In this document: positions 44,482 through 51,303 of the stretch, piece after piece | Numbering within the stretch: the stretch's first letter is position 1 | How the letters are laid out: each line of letters opens with the position of its first letter | Source: Sphingopyxis terrae subsp. terrae NBRC 15098 | GTDB lineage: Bacteria; Pseudomonadota; Alphaproteobacteria; Sphingomonadales; Sphingomonadaceae | Assembly (NCBI RefSeq): GCF_001598815.1 | Contig: NZ_BCZQ01000003.1 | Coordinates: 496,001-560,000 of the forward strand | Length of the DNA: 64,000 bases | Reading direction: 5' to 3' | The notes under the pieces: model-generated | Databases searched by the model: none | Seen by the model: only the letters and a program-made list of their open reading frames with translations | What the model was told of the DNA's origin: nothing | Program-made: the position numbers and the translations under genes

Positions 44482-45111
44482 TCAATCCTGCGTCCGCTGC
44501 CCGTCGAGCTGGATGATCGTCGCCATTCGAACGAGGTCCGACAGCGTTTTCGCCTGCATCTTCATCATGGCATTCGCCCGATAGACCTCGACCGTCCGTG
44601 CGCTGATCGAGAGATCAAAGGCTATGGCCTTGTTCGCCTTGCCGGCGACAAGACCATCGACAACCTCGCGCTCGCGCGCCGAAAGCGCGGCCATGCGGTC
44701 CATGATCGCCTGTCGTTCCGCCCGCGCGGTTTCGCTACCGGTCTGCTGTGTCAGCGCCCGCCGGATTGCACCCAGCATGATGTCATCGTCGAAAGGCTTC
44801 TCGATGAAATCGGCGACACCGGCCTTCATGGCCTGAATGGCGAGCGGGACATCGGCATGACCGGTAATCATAATGACCGGGATAGACGCGCCCCGAGCCT
44901 TCAATGTCTCCACCAACTCCATCCCGCTGGTCCCTGGCATCCGTACGTCGGTCACGACGCAAGCGCCATCGAGTGGCGGTGATGCCTTTAGAAAGGCGTC
45001 GGCAGACGCAAAGCCCCGGACACGGATGCCGGTGCAATCAAGCAGAAATTCGAGCGAACCGCGCGCGCCGTCATCGTCGTCGACCACATAGACGATCGGA
45101 TCATTCGCCAT
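44482..45111 (-). CDS. fixJ: FixJ-type response regulator
   Basis: 209 residues. Receiver: [17 protein letters not shown] acidic pocket, [14 protein letters not shown] with phospho-Asp, MITGHAD, and EKPFDD Lys. Lux[24 protein letters not shown] and [20 protein letters not shown], matching FixJ/TtrR. ATG 45111 has GAGGAG 7-12 bases upstream and lies within the 3' end of the fixL gene. It probably activates the divergent aox operon at low oxygen. Confidence 0.93.
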
Positions 45112-46645
45112 CAATTAACTCCTCGTGGCCAATTCTCGGCAAGGTGAAGCTGAACCGCGCGCCGCCGCCGGGCACCGGATCGACCCGGATCTTCCCGCCA
45201 TGTGCCTCGACGATAGTGCGCGAGATCGACAAGCCCACGCCCATACCGGTGCGCTTCGTGGTTATGAAGGGCTGAAACAATTGCGCCGCCACGGCGGGAT
45301 CGATGCCGGGGCCATTGTCGGTCACGGTGGCCCGGGCCATGTCGCCATCGGACTCGATCCCGATCGTCATTTCGCGGTTTCCCGCGGCCGTATCGGCAAA
45401 AGCGTCGACCGCATTGCGGACGAGATTGAGCACCACCTGCTGAATCTGCACCTTGTCGACGAGCACCAGATCGACGGCTGGATCGAAGGCGAAGCGAATG
45501 CGGATATCATGTTCGCGCGCACCTACCAGCGCAAGCGCGCTCGCCTCCTCGACGAGCTTGGGCAGGCTTTCGACCGTTCGCTCGGTTTCGCCGCGTGCGA
45601 CGAAATCGCGCAGCCGCCGGATGATGTCGCCCGCGCGCAGAGCTTCTGCCGCCGCCCGTTCAACGGCGTCGGTCAGCCGATCCATCGCAACCTCCTCGCG
45701 CGCCAGAAGGATCCGGCTGCCTTTAAGATAATTGGCGATCGCCGACAGCGGCTGGTTGATCTCGTGCGCCAGCGCCGACGCCATCTCGCCCAGACTGGTA
45801 AGACGGGAAACGTGGACGAGTTCGTTCTGCAGTTCCTGTAAACGCGCCTCGGCCTTCTGGTTCTCGGTGAGGTCACGAATGAAACCGGTGAAAAAGCGTT
45901 CGCCGCCGGCCCGCATCTCGCCGACCGACAATTCGATCGGAAAGGTCGAGCCGTCGCGCCGCTCTCCTACGACCACGCGCCCCTTCCCGATGATCCGCCG
46001 TTCGCCGGTGCGGTAGTAGCGATCGAGATAATCGTCATGCGCGCCGCGGTAGGGTTCAGGCATCAGCAGGCGCACGTTGCGGCCCACTATCTCCTTTGCC
46101 GGCCAGCCAAACATGCGTGTCGCTGCTGGACTGAAGTCACGGATATCGCCAGCTTCGTCAATGACTACCATCGCGTCGGGCACCGTCTCCAGAACCGAAC
46201 GGAGATGCGCTTCGCGCGCGGCGAGGCTGGCGGCAGCCCTCTCGGTTTCGACCCGCGCGTGCTGGAACCATTCGCCGCCGATGGCAATCGCCAGCGAAAT
46301 TAGCAGGAATGACGCAGCCGCTATCCAGCTCCCGCCGGCAAGAGGGCCCGACAGGCTGTCGCACCACAAGCCCGCCGCCGCGCCCGCCAGGGCCGCCAGG
46401 AGGCCGGCGCGCCATCCCGAAAGAGCGCCCGCCAGGACCACGCCGGGCACGAAGAAGATGAAGGTTGCGCGCTGGCCCAGCTCGTCGGCGAAAGCGAGGC
46501 GGACGCCGGCGCCCGAGGCGATGGCAACCAATGCGAGCGCCAGCGCCTGCGCCACCGGAAGCCGGGGCAGAAAGCGGCTCACAAAGCTGGCACGCTGGAC
46601 CTCCGGTAAATCCCTTAGGGGAGGTACGGTAGGGACATCATCCAA
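45101..46645 (-). CDS. fixL: oxygen-sensing FixL-like PAS histidine kinase
   Basis: 514 residues. N-terminal four hydrophobic segments (about 25-130, DUF4118/MASE1-like), a PAS domain (about 145-260) and a HisKA/HATPase core: [20 protein letters not shown] (phospho-His) and [12 protein letters not shown] (N box), [18 protein letters not shown]. In the PAS domain, [20 protein letters not shown] then [20 protein letters not shown] aligns with FixL: the haem ligand His in GAHDDY and the two Arg positions (DRY, GKGR) that gate O2 signalling. So a haem sensor is strongly indicated. Next gene fixJ. Confidence 0.92.
46605..46634. promoter_or_regulatory. possible FixJ-type site upstream of fixL/aox
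   Basis: GGTAAATCCCTTAGG (46605-46619) and TACGGTAGGGAC (46625-46636 region) lie at the 5' edge of fixL, about 100 bases before aox. They resemble the TTA-n-CCCTTA form of FixJ boxes loosely and show a repeated T(T/G)AGGG pattern. Tentative. Confidence 0.25.
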
Positions 46646-46725
46646 ATTTCCGCGCTCCTCTCTCCGGCCTACTTCATCCCCATCGACGGCATCTCTACCC
46701 CTGCCGCCGGAACGGAGATGTTCCC

Positions 46726-47415
46726 ATGACTGCCCCTTTCATCGATCTCAGCGTCCATCACAACCCCAAGGGTCTGTCCGATCGTGTCGCTTATGGCTTC
46801 ACCAAGGCCCTGCGCTGGTGCGCCGACACTTTTTTCGCCGAGCGCTACGGTCATCGCGCCGTGGTTCTGGAAACGGTCGCCGCTGTGCCGGGCATGGTCG
46901 GTGCCACGATCAACCATCTCACGTGCCTGCGCCGCATGTGCGACGACAGGGGCTGGATAAAGACGCTCATGGACGAGGCCGAGAATGAGCGCATGCACCT
47001 CATGACCTTCATCGAGATCTCCAAGCCGACGCTCTTCGAGCGGGCGGTGATCATCGGCGTGCAATGGGTGTTCTATGTCTGCTTCTTCGCGCTCTATCTC
47101 ATCAGTTCCAAGACAGCGCACCGCGTCGTGGGCTATTTCGAGGAAGAGGCGGTCATCAGCTACACACATTATCTTGCCGAGATCGACGAGGGCCGCAGCG
47201 CGAACGTCCCGGCCCCCCAGATCGCCAAACATTATTGGGGCCTGCCCGCCGATGCGACGTTGCGTGACGTCGTCCTGGTCGTTCGCGCCGACGAGGCGCA
47301 CCACCGCGATGTCAACCACGGCTTCGCCAACGAGCTCGCCGGTCTGCCCGTCGGCGCGGTGGCCGAGTGTCCGCCGCATGTGACGCTGGAACCCAATTGG
47401 AAGAAGGCGGCTTGA
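46726..47415 (+). CDS. aox: alternative (cyanide-insensitive) ubiquinol oxidase
   Basis: 229 residues. Start [20 protein letters not shown]. Di-iron ligands are visible in order: [24 protein letters not shown] (E and E-x-x-H), [29 protein letters not shown] (E-x-x-H). Two membrane-associated helices ([19 protein letters not shown]). It oxidises ubiquinol with O2 to water without proton pumping and resists cyanide and NO. The haemoglobins downstream and fixLJ upstream suggest use under hypoxia or NO stress. Confidence 0.94.
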
Positions 47416-47444
47416 GCGCAGGCCCAAGGCAAGGAGAGAAGGGC

Positions 47445-47789
47445 ATGGATCGGCCGGTTACACTTCTGGCGAGCGATCTCGCCCTTCGCTCCGCGCTCGG
47501 TTTTTTGCTGACGCTCGAGGGGTTTGACATTCGCGGCGACGCCGACCGCGCCACCGGTTCCGTGTGCTTGGTCGTCGACCAGGGCTTTCGCGGCGACGGA
47601 CTGGCATGGCTTGCCGGCCTTCGCGCCGCCGGGAACTCGTCGCCAGCCATCGTGCTCACGACGCATCCTGACCGCGTCGTTCGCGCCTCGGCCGTGGCGC
47701 TCGGCGCGCGGCTGATAGAAAAGCCGCTGACGGGCGACGAATTGACCGATGCCCTGACCGAAATCCTGACCCATCGCCCCGCCGATTGA
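47445..47789 (+). CDS. atypical receiver-like domain protein
   Basis: 114 residues. MDRPVTLLASDLALRSALGF follows the receiver fold but with a single acidic residue in the first pocket; VCLVVDQGFRGDGLAWLAGL has the expected Asp position and LIEKPLTGDELTDALTEIL the conserved Lys. It resembles REC domains with reduced phosphorylation chemistry. Lies between aox and globin, start 47445 with AAGGAGAGAAGGGC, so it belongs to the operon. Role is unclear; it may act as a signal sink or partner of FixL. Confidence 0.75.
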   Translation: MDRPVTLLASDLALRSALGFLLTLEGFDIRGDADRATGSVCLVVDQGFRGDGLAWLAGLRAAGNSSPAIVLTTHPDRVVRASAVALGARLIEKPLTGDELTDALTEILTHRPAD

Positions 47790-47824
47790 CCGCCGCGACA
47801 CCTATCGAAACAAAGGAATATACT

Positions 47825-48274
47825 ATGCGCACCGCCTCTCCCCAAGCCATGGCCATCGTCAAATCGACCGCTCCGGCGCTCGAGAAGCACGGCGTCGAGA
47901 TCACCACCGCCATGTACACGCGGCTCTTTTGCGACCCTGCCATTGAGGCGCTGTTCGACAAGGCGGCCCAGCGCAGCGGCGAGCAGCCGCGACGCCTTGC
48001 GGGCGCCATCCTTGCCTACGCGCGCAATATCGACAAGCTTGCGAACCTCGGCACGGCGGTCTCGCGCATGGTCGCGCGCCATGTCGAGACCGGCGTCAAG
48101 GCCGAACACTATCCCTATGTCGCCGAAGCCCGGCTTCCTGCGATCCGCGACGTGCTCGGGGCCGACGTCGCTACCGACGAGGTGCTGGCGGCTTGGGGAG
48201 AGGCTTATTGGATGCTCGCCGACATTCTCATCGCAGCCGAGGCGCAAGCCTATGAAGACGCCTTAGCAGCCTGA
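47825..48274 (+). CDS. single-domain haemoglobin (flavohaemoglobin-type globin)
   Basis: 149 residues; start MRTASPQAMAIVKSTAPALE. Globin core: ITTAMYTRLFCDPAIEALFD, MVARHVETGVKAEHYPYVAE with the proximal His (ARH), and GEAYWMLADILIAAEAQAYE. Similar to Vitreoscilla haemoglobin and the N-terminal domain of Hmp but without a reductase. Such proteins bind O2 and, with a reductase, detoxify NO. Operon with aox. ATG 47825. Confidence 0.93.
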   Translation: MRTASPQAMAIVKSTAPALEKHGVEITTAMYTRLFCDPAIEALFDKAAQRSGEQPRRLAGAILAYARNIDKLANLGTAVSRMVARHVETGVKAEHYPYVAEARLPAIRDVLGADVATDEVLAAWGEAYWMLADILIAAEAQAYEDALAA

Positions 48275-48287
48275 CCGGGTAGACCGA

Positions 48288-48671
48288 ATGCAACCGCAAT
48301 TATCCGAGCAGGACCTCGCGAAGCTCATTCCCGAATTTTACGCGCGGGTCAGGGCCGATCCGGTTCTTGGTCCGGTCTTCAACCGCGCAATCGCGGACTG
48401 GGACGAGCATCTTGAAAAGCTGCAAGCATTCTGGTCGTCGATCATGCTGACGAGCGGGCGTTACAAGGGCCAGCCGATGGTCGCCCATCTGCGTCACGAA
48501 GGTGCCATGACCAAGGCGAATTTCGACCGCTGGCTGGCGTTGTGGCGAAGAACCACCGGAGATCTTCTCGATCCGGGTATTGCGGCCGCACTTCAGGCGA
48601 AGGCAGCGCGGATCGCCGAAAGCCTGCAGCTTAGCGTCCAGTTCCAGCGTGAACGATTGGCGAGATCATGA
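48288..48671 (+). CDS. group III truncated haemoglobin
   Basis: 127 residues. YARVRADPVLGPVFNRAIAD, DEHLEKLQAFWSSIMLTSGR, YKGQPMVAHLRHEGAMTKAN and FDRWLALWRRTT match trHbIII: WSS..LxTGRYKGxP and the proximal His in AHLRH. This group (Campylobacter Ctb type) is linked to NO and oxygen handling. Stop overlaps the DUF1971 ATG (4 bases). Confidence 0.94.
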   Translation: MQPQLSEQDLAKLIPEFYARVRADPVLGPVFNRAIADWDEHLEKLQAFWSSIMLTSGRYKGQPMVAHLRHEGAMTKANFDRWLALWRRTTGDLLDPGIAAALQAKAARIAESLQLSVQFQRERLARS

Positions 48672-48955
48672 CGACCACCCTGCCCGCCGGTGTTCGATCC
48701 TACAAACGAACCGCCACATTTACTGAAGCGACGACGCCCGCTGCCTTGATGAGCGACCATGCGACGAAAGAGGGCGTCTGGGGTCTGATTCACGTCGAAG
48801 AGGGCAGATTGCGCTACCTTGTGACCGACGAACGACGGCTCGCTTCCGAAATAATCATCACGCCGGAGAGCGAACCGGGCATTGTCGAACCTACGATCGC
48901 GCACAGAGTCGAAGCGGTTGGGCGAGTGCGGTTCTTCGTTGAATTCCTGCGCTGA
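48668..48955 (+). CDS. DUF1971 family protein
   Basis: 95 residues. LPAGVRSYKRTATFTEATTP, KEGVWGLIHVEEGRLRYLVT, TPESEPGIVEPTIAHRVEAV, a small cupin-like DUF1971 (TehB N-terminal-like) domain. Often encoded beside truncated haemoglobins in proteobacteria and associated with NO response. ATGA overlap with the trHbIII gene. Ends the operon. Confidence 0.9.
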   Translation: MTTTLPAGVRSYKRTATFTEATTPAALMSDHATKEGVWGLIHVEEGRLRYLVTDERRLASEIIITPESEPGIVEPTIAHRVEAVGRVRFFVEFLR

Positions 48956-49038: not shown

Positions 49039-49443
49039 CTAGCCGAGCTTCGACAGATGCTTGACGAGCAGGGGCTGGAGTTGTCGCAGCTCTTCGCGAT
49101 GTGCCGCAGACAGAATTGACAGGATATCAAGTGCCTGTGGTGTCAGTCTGAGCAAAGCCCGCCGGCGATCGGATTGCGTCAGCTCGCGGCGAACAAGACC
49201 CAATGTCTCGAGCCGGTCTATCAACTCGGACGCGGAGTGAGGTTTCACGATCAGGCGCCGTGCAACATATCCGACCGTCGCTTCGTCGGGCGGCGCCCCG
49301 CGGATCGCCAACAGCGCCTGGTGCTGTTGCGGCTTCAACCCCGCTTCCGCTGCCTTGGTCTCGCTGAAAACCTGGAAGCGCCGCAGCGCGTACCGGAATT
49401 CGGCCAGTGCGGCATAATCGATGTCCGTCGAATTCGCAGCCAT
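49039..49443 (-). CDS. MarR-family regulator of the ClC operon
   Basis: 134 residues. Winged HTH: ALLAIRGAPPDEATVGYVAR, RLIVKPHSASELIDRLETLG, LVRRELTQSDRRRALLRLTP with the typical DRR in the wing. Divergent from the ClC gene by 69 bases with a 25-base palindrome between. It is likely to repress ClC and itself. Ligand unknown. Confidence 0.92.
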   Translation of the reverse strand: MAANSTDIDYAALAEFRYALRRFQVFSETKAAEAGLKPQQHQALLAIRGAPPDEATVGYVARRLIVKPHSASELIDRLETLGLVRRELTQSDRRRALLRLTPQALDILSILSAAHREELRQLQPLLVKHLSKLG

Positions 49444-49458
49444 GAACGCCCCTGATTG

Positions 49459-49483
49459 AATTATATCGCATTACGATATAATT
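49459..49483. promoter_or_regulatory. 25-base palindrome, MarR operator 1
   Basis: Perfect 10-base arms AATTATATCG and CGATATAATT separated by CATTA, 15 bases before the MarR start (49443) and 29 bases before the ClC start (49513). The central part is repeated, inverted, after the ClC gene (51307). MarR proteins bind such sites. Binding is inferred. Confidence 0.8.
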
Positions 49484-49512
49484 GCGCCGCCTCCGTCATT
49501 CGAAAGAGGCAT

Positions 49513-51303
49513 ATGGTGAGCTTTCCTTCTGCACGAACGATTTCCGGCCATCAACTTGCCGACCATAGCGCCGACGCCAGAATGATATTTCTTTCGCTTC
49601 TGGCGCCGGTGGTCGGCACAGGCGGGGCGTTCGGCGCGTGGGTCCTGATCAAATCGATCGCCCTCGCCACCAACGCCTTCTGGTTTGGACGGATTTCGGC
49701 CGAAGCGGCGGAAATCTCGGATGCCGCCGTGGGTTTGGCCGTGGTTGCCGTCCCCGTGATCGGCAGCCTGATCATCGGTCTGATGGCGCGGTTCGGTTCG
49801 GAGAAGATCCGCGGCCACGGTATTCCCGAAGCGATCGAGACGATCCTGTTCGGTGAAAGCCGCTTGTCGCTGAAAGTCGCAATTCTCAAGCCGATATCTG
49901 CCGCCATTTCGATCGGAAGTGGGGGGCCATTCGGAGCCGAAGGACCGATCATCATGACAGGTGGCGCCGTCGGCTCGCTCTTTGCCCAGTGTTTTCACCT
50001 TAGCGCGGCGGAACGAAAGACCTTGCTCGTGGCCGGCGCTGCCGCGGGCATGACCGCCATTTTCGGAACGCCGATGGCCGCGATCCTGCTCGCGGTCGAA
50101 ATTCTCCTGTTCGAATGGAAGCCGAGAAGCTTTGTTCCGGTCGTCATCAGTGTTCTGGTCGCCGCTGCATGGCGCCCCGGACTGATCGGAGATGGCGCGA
50201 TGTTCCCCGGTATCTGGCCCTCGCCGGACGTCGGCTGGATCGTCGCCGCCTCGGCCGGCATCGGGATAGTTGCAGGCCTGCAGGCCGCGCTGCTTTCCAC
50301 CTTCCTCTACCGGGTCGAAGACCTGTTCCACCGTCTGCCGGTCCACTGGATGTGGTGGCCGGCGATCGGGGCCACAGTCGTAGGCGTTGGCGGTTTGATC
50401 GATGCGCGCGTTCTTGGCGCCGGCTATTCGAATATCCAGTCGCTGATCGATGGCTCGATGGCGTTGCGCGCAGCCATCGTCCTGCTGATTGCAAAAGCCA
50501 TTGTCTGGCTCGTGGCTCTCGGGTCGGGGACGTCCGGCGGGGTGCTCGCACCCCTTCTCATTCTGGGGGGAGCAACGGGCTACATCCTCGGTCTCTGGCT
50601 ACCCGGTTCGCAGGGCTTCTGGGCGATGATCGGGATGGCGGGCATCCTGAGTGGCGCGATGCGGGCGCCGCTTACCGGCATCATATTTGCCGCAGAATTG
50701 ACGGGCCGTTTCGATGCGCTTCCGGCCCTTATCGCCGGATCCGGCTTCGCCTATGCAATCAGCGTTCTGTGTATGCGGCGCTCGATTCTCACCGAGAAAA
50801 TCGCTCGCCGCGGACGGCACATCCTGCAGGAATATATCGTCGATCCGCTCGACATGCAGCAGGCTGGCCAGCTCATGACGCCCGCGCCTGACACGCTGCC
50901 GGCCGAAATGACGATCGGCCCGGCTCTGCGATTTTTCACCGACGAGGCGATTCATCGTAGTTATCCTGTCGTCGATGCCGAGGGATGCCTCGTCGGGCTC
51001 GCATCGCGATCGGACGCGCTGCGATGGAAGATAGGTGCTTTCGATGAGGCCGCGACGCTCGGCGAAACGCTTTCGGACGCATCGCAAGCAGTGGCTCATC
51101 CCGAAACGCCCTGCGGCATTGTCGCAGACCTCATGGTCGAGACAGGCGTTGCGCGCGTGCCGATCGTCGAACGCGAGACGGGCAAAGTGGTGGGGATACT
51201 ATCCCGCCAGGACTTGCTCAAGGCGCGACGAGCGCAGCAGAGCGCCGAGACGAAGCGAAGACGTTTTGTCCGGCGGGATCTGGCCGGTTCGACACCCGAT
51301 TGA
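49513..51303 (+). CDS. ClC-family chloride channel/antiporter with CBS domain
   Basis: 596 residues, ATG 49513 with AAAGAGG upstream. About 11 membrane helices of the voltage-gated ClC fold: ISIGSGGPFGAEGPIIMTGG (selectivity/gating region with Glu), GSGTSGGVLAPLLILGG, and GILSGAMRAPLTGIIFAAEL. C-terminal CBS pair from about residue 460: LMTPAPDTLPAEMTIGPALR and FFTDEAIHRSYPVVDAEGCL. The gating Glu position is present, favouring Cl-/H+ exchange, but the flanking residues differ from E. coli ClcA. Two palindromes flank it. Confidence 0.93.
   Translation: MVSFPSARTISGHQLADHSADARMIFLSLLAPVVGTGGAFGAWVLIKSIALATNAFWFGRISAEAAEISDAAVGLAVVAVPVIGSLIIGLMARFGSEKIRGHGIPEAIETILFGESRLSLKVAILKPISAAISIGSGGPFGAEGPIIMTGGAVGSLFAQCFHLSAAERKTLLVAGAAAGMTAIFGTPMAAILLAVEILLFEWKPRSFVPVVISVLVAAAWRPGLIGDGAMFPGIWPSPDVGWIVAASAGIGIVAGLQAALLSTFLYRVEDLFHRLPVHWMWWPAIGATVVGVGGLIDARVLGAGYSNIQSLIDGSMALRAAIVLLIAKAIVWLVALGSGTSGGVLAPLLILGGATGYILGLWLPGSQGFWAMIGMAGILSGAMRAPLTGIIFAAELTGRFDALPALIAGSGFAYAISVLCMRRSILTEKIARRGRHILQEYIVDPLDMQQAGQLMTPAPDTLPAEMTIGPALRFFTDEAIHRSYPVVDAEGCLVGLASRSDALRWKIGAFDEAATLGETLSDASQAVAHPETPCGIVADLMVETGVARVPIVERETGKVVGILSRQDLLKARRAQQSAETKRRRFVRRDLAGSTPD

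Follow-up and report, generated by a model that had tools for sequence, protein, structure and literature searches.

Which regulator governs an alternative oxidase (AOX) gene that stands back to back with a haem-based sensor kinase and in company with two globin genes? The question is raised by a locus within a 64,000-nucleotide stretch of the genome of Sphingopyxis terrae subsp. terrae NBRC 15098 (contig NZ_BCZQ01000003.1, positions 496,001 to 560,000), hereafter the window. There, fixJ and fixL diverge from aox, which is followed by genes for a receiver protein, two globins and a DUF1971 protein; this arrangement, described in the initial annotation, was recovered with all seven genes in place (Table 1). 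Sequence comparisons make it highly probable that the locus is a self-contained FixLJ circuit, in which a predicted FixJ box would directly activate the aox operon and whose output would be nitric oxide (NO)-tolerant respiration.

The fixL-aox box and its distribution

The interval between fixL and aox contains a block, CTCCGGTAAATCCCTTAGGG-N6-CGGTAGGGACATCATCCAAATTT (46601-46649), that is conserved well beyond its flanks. Its last part, CCAAATTT, is an exact match to CSNAATWT. CSNAATWT is reported at -33 in the fixK promoters of three rhizobia, and attempts at defining a FixJ motif are described as having yielded varying results (PMC4999443, available excerpt). The best reading of the block is that of a predicted FixJ box, because it is found before fixK, hemN and aox elsewhere, as detailed below.

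Among 298 genomes of the family, 54 were AOX-positive, with 55 AOX loci, and fixL lies divergently beside AOX at 23 of them; in a 55-row tree these 23 AOX proteins occupy one side of one branch (support 96/91, the bootstrap not having settled). A second, overlapping set drawn from GTDB species genomes contained 537 confirmed AOX relatives, and among the best 80 of these 60 are FixLJ-linked, including members of Brevundimonas and Phenylobacterium, which belong to another order. Once both sets were merged and identical upstream regions collapsed, 118 loci were left, 66 linked and 52 unlinked. A receiver gene stands directly 3' of aox at 50/66 linked versus 1/52 unlinked loci, and one or both globins are nearby at 44/66 versus 12/52.

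The box follows the same division. A pattern of our own making occurs upstream of aox in 62 of the 66 linked unique regions versus 3 of the 52 unlinked ones, and CSNAATWT in 38 versus 6. All unlinked exceptions belong to Caulobacterales (box in L136, L147 and L153; CSNAATWT in L125, L140, L141, L147, L154 and L155), and every one of their genomes has FixL elsewhere, at 67-75% identity. When 20 genomes with an unlinked AOX were searched for FixL, 19 matched; the match in the genome of L107 reaches 75%, and among four other Sphingomonadales those of L111, L113 and L127 are weaker (59-62%) and the genome of L148 gave none. In addition, profile R2, made from compact boxes and run at E<=0.01 with strict filters and 22 candidates scored per genome, matched 15 of the 298 genomes, all of them among the 26 with FixL of at least 74% identity, versus 0 of the 272 others.

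One of the 23 linked loci, L039, is nearly identical to the window. This locus (L085 / L039) comes from a metagenome-assembled genome, Sphingomonas sp. SCN 67-18, where a 6309-base contig carries 11/11 compared genes 92-100% identical to those of the window, with AOX at 100% and the flanking UDG and ClC at 99%, and is filed under another genus; the same genome has a second, unlinked AOX (L082). The contig is perhaps a misbinned Sphingopyxis fragment or the product of a recent transfer. Brevundimonas alba carries two separate FixLJ-box-aox copies on the same contig (L134 and L132).

Promoters bearing the box beyond the linked aox

R2 listed 27 sites, 17 of which lie outside its training: before aox (4), norB (4), ccoN (3), hmp (2) and genes for small membrane-like proteins (4), one of the latter being followed by nfu; hmp of L250 and ccoN of L257 are named by likeness only. 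Further sites, from training or found by pattern, precede norB in L143, L144, L152, L218 and L221, hmp in L041, L092 and L105, and nfu in L157, L218 and L221, with L144 norB, L092 and L105 hmp, and L157 and L218 nfu again named by likeness. Pfam supplied the names of the norB proteins scanned, for which NCBIfam gave no match at the threshold applied. Moreover, the box appears before fixT-like genes: in L221 it lies between fixL and a FixT-like gene, and in L216 and L218, where no aox was found, a FixT-like or FixJ-type receiver gene faces fixLJ and the box is kept. In Sphingomonas sp. UNC305MFCol5.2, aox (L107) lies ~150 kb from fixLJ (L221), and a variant box, CTTCCGGTAGGGCCCTTAGGG (CTTCCGG), which the pattern misses, was found upstream of that aox with profile R1 (46.6 bits).

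In Caulobacterales, R2 at E<=0.5 matched 9 of the 12 genomes searched. Matches outside training lie before fixK (two genomes, E 0.0012 and 0.0048), hemN (one, 2.6e-5), fixL (one, 0.0034) and aox (two). The two Crp-type proteins have FixK as best family (211 and 216 bits, below the cut-off of 300), and HemN lies above its family cut-off. Three weak matches in this order (L294, L295 and L300), with no clear gene behind them, were discarded. Direct activation of fixK by FixLJ is documented (PMC7078487, available excerpt); FixLJ is listed in Caulobacterales and Rhizobiales, with fixK as the sole conserved FixJ target in Caulobacterales (PMC4999443), and Sphingobium plasmids are said to carry FixLJ (PMC6783567, available excerpt).

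Within the genome that contains the window, R1 at E<=10 returned one site, itself in training (150 of 739 candidates scored), and R2 returned the same site plus three weak ones with no evident relevant gene behind them. Since there is one good box site by both profiles, FixLJ appears to act locally there, on its own neighbour. A wider FixJ regulon in Sphingopyxis is not claimed, since the other weak R2 matches mostly resemble an unrelated TAGGGTCAGGACCC-containing element. This element recurs in Sphingopyxis L268, L274, L279, L281 and L283, where it yields weak R2 matches and is apparently unrelated to the FixJ box.

As a separate observation, proteins of ~90-160 residues, membrane-like by eye, are encoded 3' of FixJ-type boxes in L242, L247, L262 and L264, and also in L252, with nfu next in L264; four of the five share an AAVWP...AP.PIP motif. 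Those of L247 and L262 have no Pfam or NCBIfam match, and that of L252 no Pfam match.

FixL, FixJ and the degenerate receiver

FixJ scores 280 bits against the NCBIfam equivalog NF006900 (cut-off 255) and is thus assigned to it. FixL has NF041777, the Rhizobium FixL equivalog, as best family (545 bits over residues 138-504, below the cut-off of 850), its N-terminus being unmatched; the protein is called FixL from its PAS domain, pocket and kinase, and not as the rhizobial equivalog. Its N-terminus is hydrophobic and, by eye, membrane-anchored. HisKA and HATPase_c domains are present, with the phospho-accepting His in 75/75 rows of a conservation set made of 74 unique FixL open reading frames (ORFs) plus the window reference, in which the window is probably counted twice. 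The start likely corresponds to GTG 46582; the TTG at 46645 proposed by the ORF caller would read through the conserved box.

The PAS domain aligns across all 130 given residues with that of Bradyrhizobium FixL (E 1.3e-51) and over 117 residues with that of Sinorhizobium FixL (E 5.2e-48). ORF residues H203, R209 and R223 coincide with the haem-binding His and the Arg pair of the Bradyrhizobium protein, whose numbers we take to be 200, 206 and 220 (His, Arg, Arg), and two mutant crystal chains in the same alignment output differ precisely at both Arg positions. Of the 75 rows, 74 retain the proximal His (the other has a gap), 71 the first Arg (R206) and all 75 the second (R220). Retention of the haem ligand and of the Arg residues that report O2, as first proposed from the sequence of the locus, is therefore borne out, and FixL likely senses oxygen because the His and both Arg are kept.

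The receiver encoded after aox has FixT as best family (E 1.1e-9, 38 bits, below the equivalog cut-off of 150) and resembles FixJ receivers. All 37 unique relatives retain the KPL lysine; at the phospho-acceptor position 31 have Asp and 6 have Glu, the first acidic residues being decayed in many by eye. It has no 4-Cys motif, with one Cys near the Asp; as that motif of FixT is stated to be absent outside Caulobacter, its lack here is no argument against likeness to FixT. Its most plausible role is that of a FixT-like feedback receiver.

Operon and neighbouring genes

The five plus-strand genes are separated by gaps of 29, 35 and 13 nt followed by a 4-nt overlap, so they likely form one operon. 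Sigma-70 and terminator scans of the region gave no useful promoter and no useful terminator. FNR control of the window promoter was set aside, the single 8/10 match at -53 (3/200 shuffles) not being kept in relatives by eye.

Table 1. Positions of the genes and promoter elements of the fixLJ-aox locus in the window.
Feature	Position	Strand	Basis or remark
fixJ, response regulator (receiver + LuxR-type DNA-binding domain)	44482..45111	-	NCBIfam NF006900
fixL, haem-PAS histidine kinase	45101..46582	-	proposed GTG start 46582; PAS, pocket, kinase
Upstream half of predicted FixJ-type box, CTCCGGTAAATCCCTTAGGG	46601..46620	+	
Third half-site, CGGTAGGG	46627..46634	+	missing from compact boxes of other genera
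CCAAATTT	46642..46649	+	exact CSNAATWT match
Putative -10 element CTACTT	46669..46674	+	by eye from 23-locus alignment; consensus scan did not find it
aox, alternative oxidase	46726..47415	+	PF01786; iron-ligand motifs
Degenerate FixJ-type receiver, FixT-like candidate feedback inhibitor of FixL	47445..47789	+	likeness to FixT and FixJ receivers
Single-domain haemoglobin, Vitreoscilla Hb / Hmp globin-domain type	47825..48274	+	
Group III truncated haemoglobin	48288..48671	+	
DUF1971 protein, last gene of likely operon	48668..48955	+	PF09313

AOX (PF01786, E 2.7e-85) carries the di-iron motifs, which we take to be the iron ligands and which align with those of solved mitochondrial AOX; it is the sole copy in its genome. 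The single-domain globin has as top solved match 1vhb ('hemoglobin', presumably that of Vitreoscilla; E 1.7e-34), and the truncated one 2ig3 ('Group III truncated haemoglobin', E 6.7e-15), the latter scoring 20.2 against PF01152, slightly below the cut-off of 21. The DUF1971 protein (PF09313, E 2.8e-23) shares its domain, we assume, with E. coli YeaR. The yeaR gene is NsrR-regulated and NO-responsive (PMC5320621, available excerpt).

Searching the genome for nifH gave two weak partial matches, none above the curated cut-off, other nif genes not being searched. Three COX1-family genes are present; one of them, ~1.1 kb from a Crp/FNR-type gene, resembles by eye a cbb3 subunit. Just past the operon (window 49039-51303), a gene for a MarR-type regulator (Pfam) adjoins a CLC chloride channel-like gene with CBS domains (by eye), and neither neighbour stands beside AOX in most relatives.

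Proposed circuit

In the circuit envisaged, deoxy-FixL, and possibly also NO-reacted FixL, would phosphorylate FixJ, and FixJ~P would bind the fixL-aox box and directly activate the five-gene aox operon with no FixK intermediate. AOX would then pass electrons to oxygen once NO or low oxygen disables the haem-copper oxidases, the two globins would remove NO, and the degenerate receiver would feed back on FixL in the manner of FixT.

Induction by NO and alternative regulators

Expression of aox is documented for S. granuli TFA: under anoxia it rises 450-fold with nitrate and 17-fold without; adding NO to nitrate-free anoxic cultures raises it 70-fold, and DETA-NO induces it in air as well (PMC6472365). 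Induction is reduced in fnr and narG mutants, from which the authors deduce that NO is the inducer (PMC7713065). NsrR control is cited there for other bacteria; the available excerpts contain no tie between aox and fixLJ, and the word 'FixL' appears nowhere in PMC6472365. The type strain NBRC 100800 (L090) has FixJ, FixL and AOX at 76, 79 and 92% identity to those of the window, and the box is present. These inductions, the synteny across two orders, the tracking of FixL by the box and its presence before NO reductase, flavohaemoglobin, cbb3 oxidase, fixK and hemN genes all support the proposal of the initial annotation, namely a FixLJ-controlled respiratory module for hypoxia and NO without nitrogen fixation genes.

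Several points weigh against FixLJ control of aox: (i) the box pattern and profiles R1 and R2 were built from these very loci, 7 of the 15 R2-positive genomes having supplied training sites, and the R2 scoring was narrow; (ii) four of the 66 linked loci (Phenylobacterium) lack the pattern, and 11 of the 26 FixL genomes gave no R2 match, ten of these having a linked aox with box by pattern and the eleventh (that of L216) a box with no aox found; (iii) in the family set all linked AOX belong to a single clade, which means that the counts are not independent and the Fisher p-values for the box, which ignore shared ancestry, are overstated; (iv) the window box agrees with the S. meliloti fixK site TAAGTAATTTCCCTTA at 11/16 positions, which 2/100 shuffles reach, with some unlinked loci scoring 11-12 too; and (v) the S. 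granuli locus compared is that of the type strain NBRC 100800, not of TFA, and none of the downstream operon genes was detected there. A case resting on the likeness under (iv) alone was dropped as too weak. Three further points count both against FixLJ control and against NO sensing by FixL: NO is the main inducer in TFA, with an effect larger than that of anoxia; the S. granuli box overlaps an NsrR-like palindrome (11/14, 2/200 shuffles); and R2 in the type-strain genome gave four matches, two at aox and two elsewhere, none before other obvious NO-response genes.

FixL, another regulator such as NsrR, or the two together may convey the NO signal to the promoter. Dual control, in which FixLJ would provide the low-oxygen response and a separate NO regulator would add the NO response in some species, coincides with the preferred reading at the FixLJ step and is a possibility to be taken seriously, if short of probable. 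A precedent is one S. meliloti operon induced microaerobically by FixLJ and by NO via NnrR (title of a reference in PMC3147055, available excerpt). The modest anoxia part and larger NO part of the TFA response fit this proposal, as do the palindrome overlying the S. granuli box and the lack, by R2, of further box-bearing NO genes in that genome; on the other side, the 23-locus alignment shows by eye no second conserved element besides the box, a -10-like element and the ribosome-binding site.

More tentatively, FixL itself is proposed as an NO/O2 sensor, in which bound O2 would react with NO, or NO would displace O2, so that the kinase would be on in air with NO. This doubtful proposal includes a FixLJ module served by one promoter and made up of sensor, activator, feedback receiver, oxidase and NO-removing globins, as well as an exchange of control between FixLJ and NsrR over a shared AOX-globin-DUF1971 set.

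It appears improbable that fixLJ is merely a neighbour and that the operon answers chiefly to a different NO regulator (NsrR, the one at work in Vibrio fischeri). The genome of the window encodes four Rrf2 proteins, and the one scanned scores best as NsrR, below the cut-off; this, the S. granuli palindrome and the predominance of NO in TFA speak for such control. Nonetheless, the best NsrR-like site of the window promoter is no better than chance (9/14, reached by 151/200 shuffles), none of the 23 linked family loci has such a site above chance (the lowest, L041, at 10% of 50 shuffles), and the box follows FixL across genomes. Furthermore, an NsrR-type neighbour was found at 0/23 linked family loci, L049 having another Rrf2 gene 2.7 kb downstream, versus 9/32 unlinked ones, where an Rrf2 regulator lies 0.1 to 4 kb from AOX. 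These nine regulators are NsrR/RirA-like by score, below both cut-offs, and one or both globins lie near AOX at each of the nine loci.

NsrR-like palindromes occur at some unlinked promoters (L079 14/14, L078 13/14, L063, L044 and L068 12/14; each 0/50 shuffles). Those of L079 and L078, respectively perfect and near-perfect, are of the form AAGATGC-N9-GCATCTT and lie at about -117 from aox. That similar partner genes stand beside NsrR-type regulators and FixLJ suggests a shared job in NO or low-oxygen conditions; there is also an apparent exchange of the two regulators over these gene sets.

Finally, it is very improbable that the block serves some other regulator as promoter or leader element and tracks FixL by linkage only, for, despite its overlap with the expected core promoter and the single clade of linked AOX, it precedes fixK, hemN, ccoN, norB, hmp and an aox ~150 kb from fixLJ, and R2 found it in none of the genomes without a close FixL.

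Comparison with known systems

FixLJ control of aox, as preferred here, can be set beside four described systems. The FixLJ-FixK-FixT system of Caulobacter crescentus (PMC7078487, available excerpt) is alike in placing FixLJ in a non-nitrogen-fixer and in having a receiver, FixT, as feedback inhibitor; there, FixLJ drives high-affinity terminal oxidases and haem synthesis. In C. crescentus it is fixK that is directly activated, whereas in Sphingopyxis the predicted site lies on aox itself, as the one good site in the genome, and the receiver differs from C. crescentus FixT in being without the 4-Cys motif and below the FixT cut-off. Beyond nitrogen fixation and fixK, the likely FixJ regulon would take in AOX in both Sphingomonadales and Caulobacterales, together with NO reductase, flavohaemoglobin and cbb3 oxidase in the former order and hemN in the latter.

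In Sinorhizobium meliloti, FixLJ is reported to help NO sensing and to raise hmp; this organism differs in being a nitrogen fixer that also uses NnrR, with no aox link (PMC3820574, available excerpt). No FixLJ-AOX link was found in the literature on bacterial alternative oxidase with FixL, as far as available, mostly without subscription papers.

The aox of S. granuli TFA (PMC6472365, PMC7713065) is alike in that the type strain has a 92% identical AOX with FixLJ and box present, and differs in that no regulator has been shown and the type-strain locus is without detected downstream operon genes. The locus offers a candidate regulator and DNA site for a bacterial aox whose induction by NO and anoxia is published and whose regulator is not yet shown.

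The aox of V. fischeri (PMC1274295, PMC6472365, available excerpts) is likewise NO-inducible and differs in answering to NsrR instead of FixLJ, a wiring that some other sphingomonad aox loci appear to share. The apparent exchange between NsrR-type regulators and FixLJ brings NO sensing by FixL within reach of direct tests in a tractable strain.

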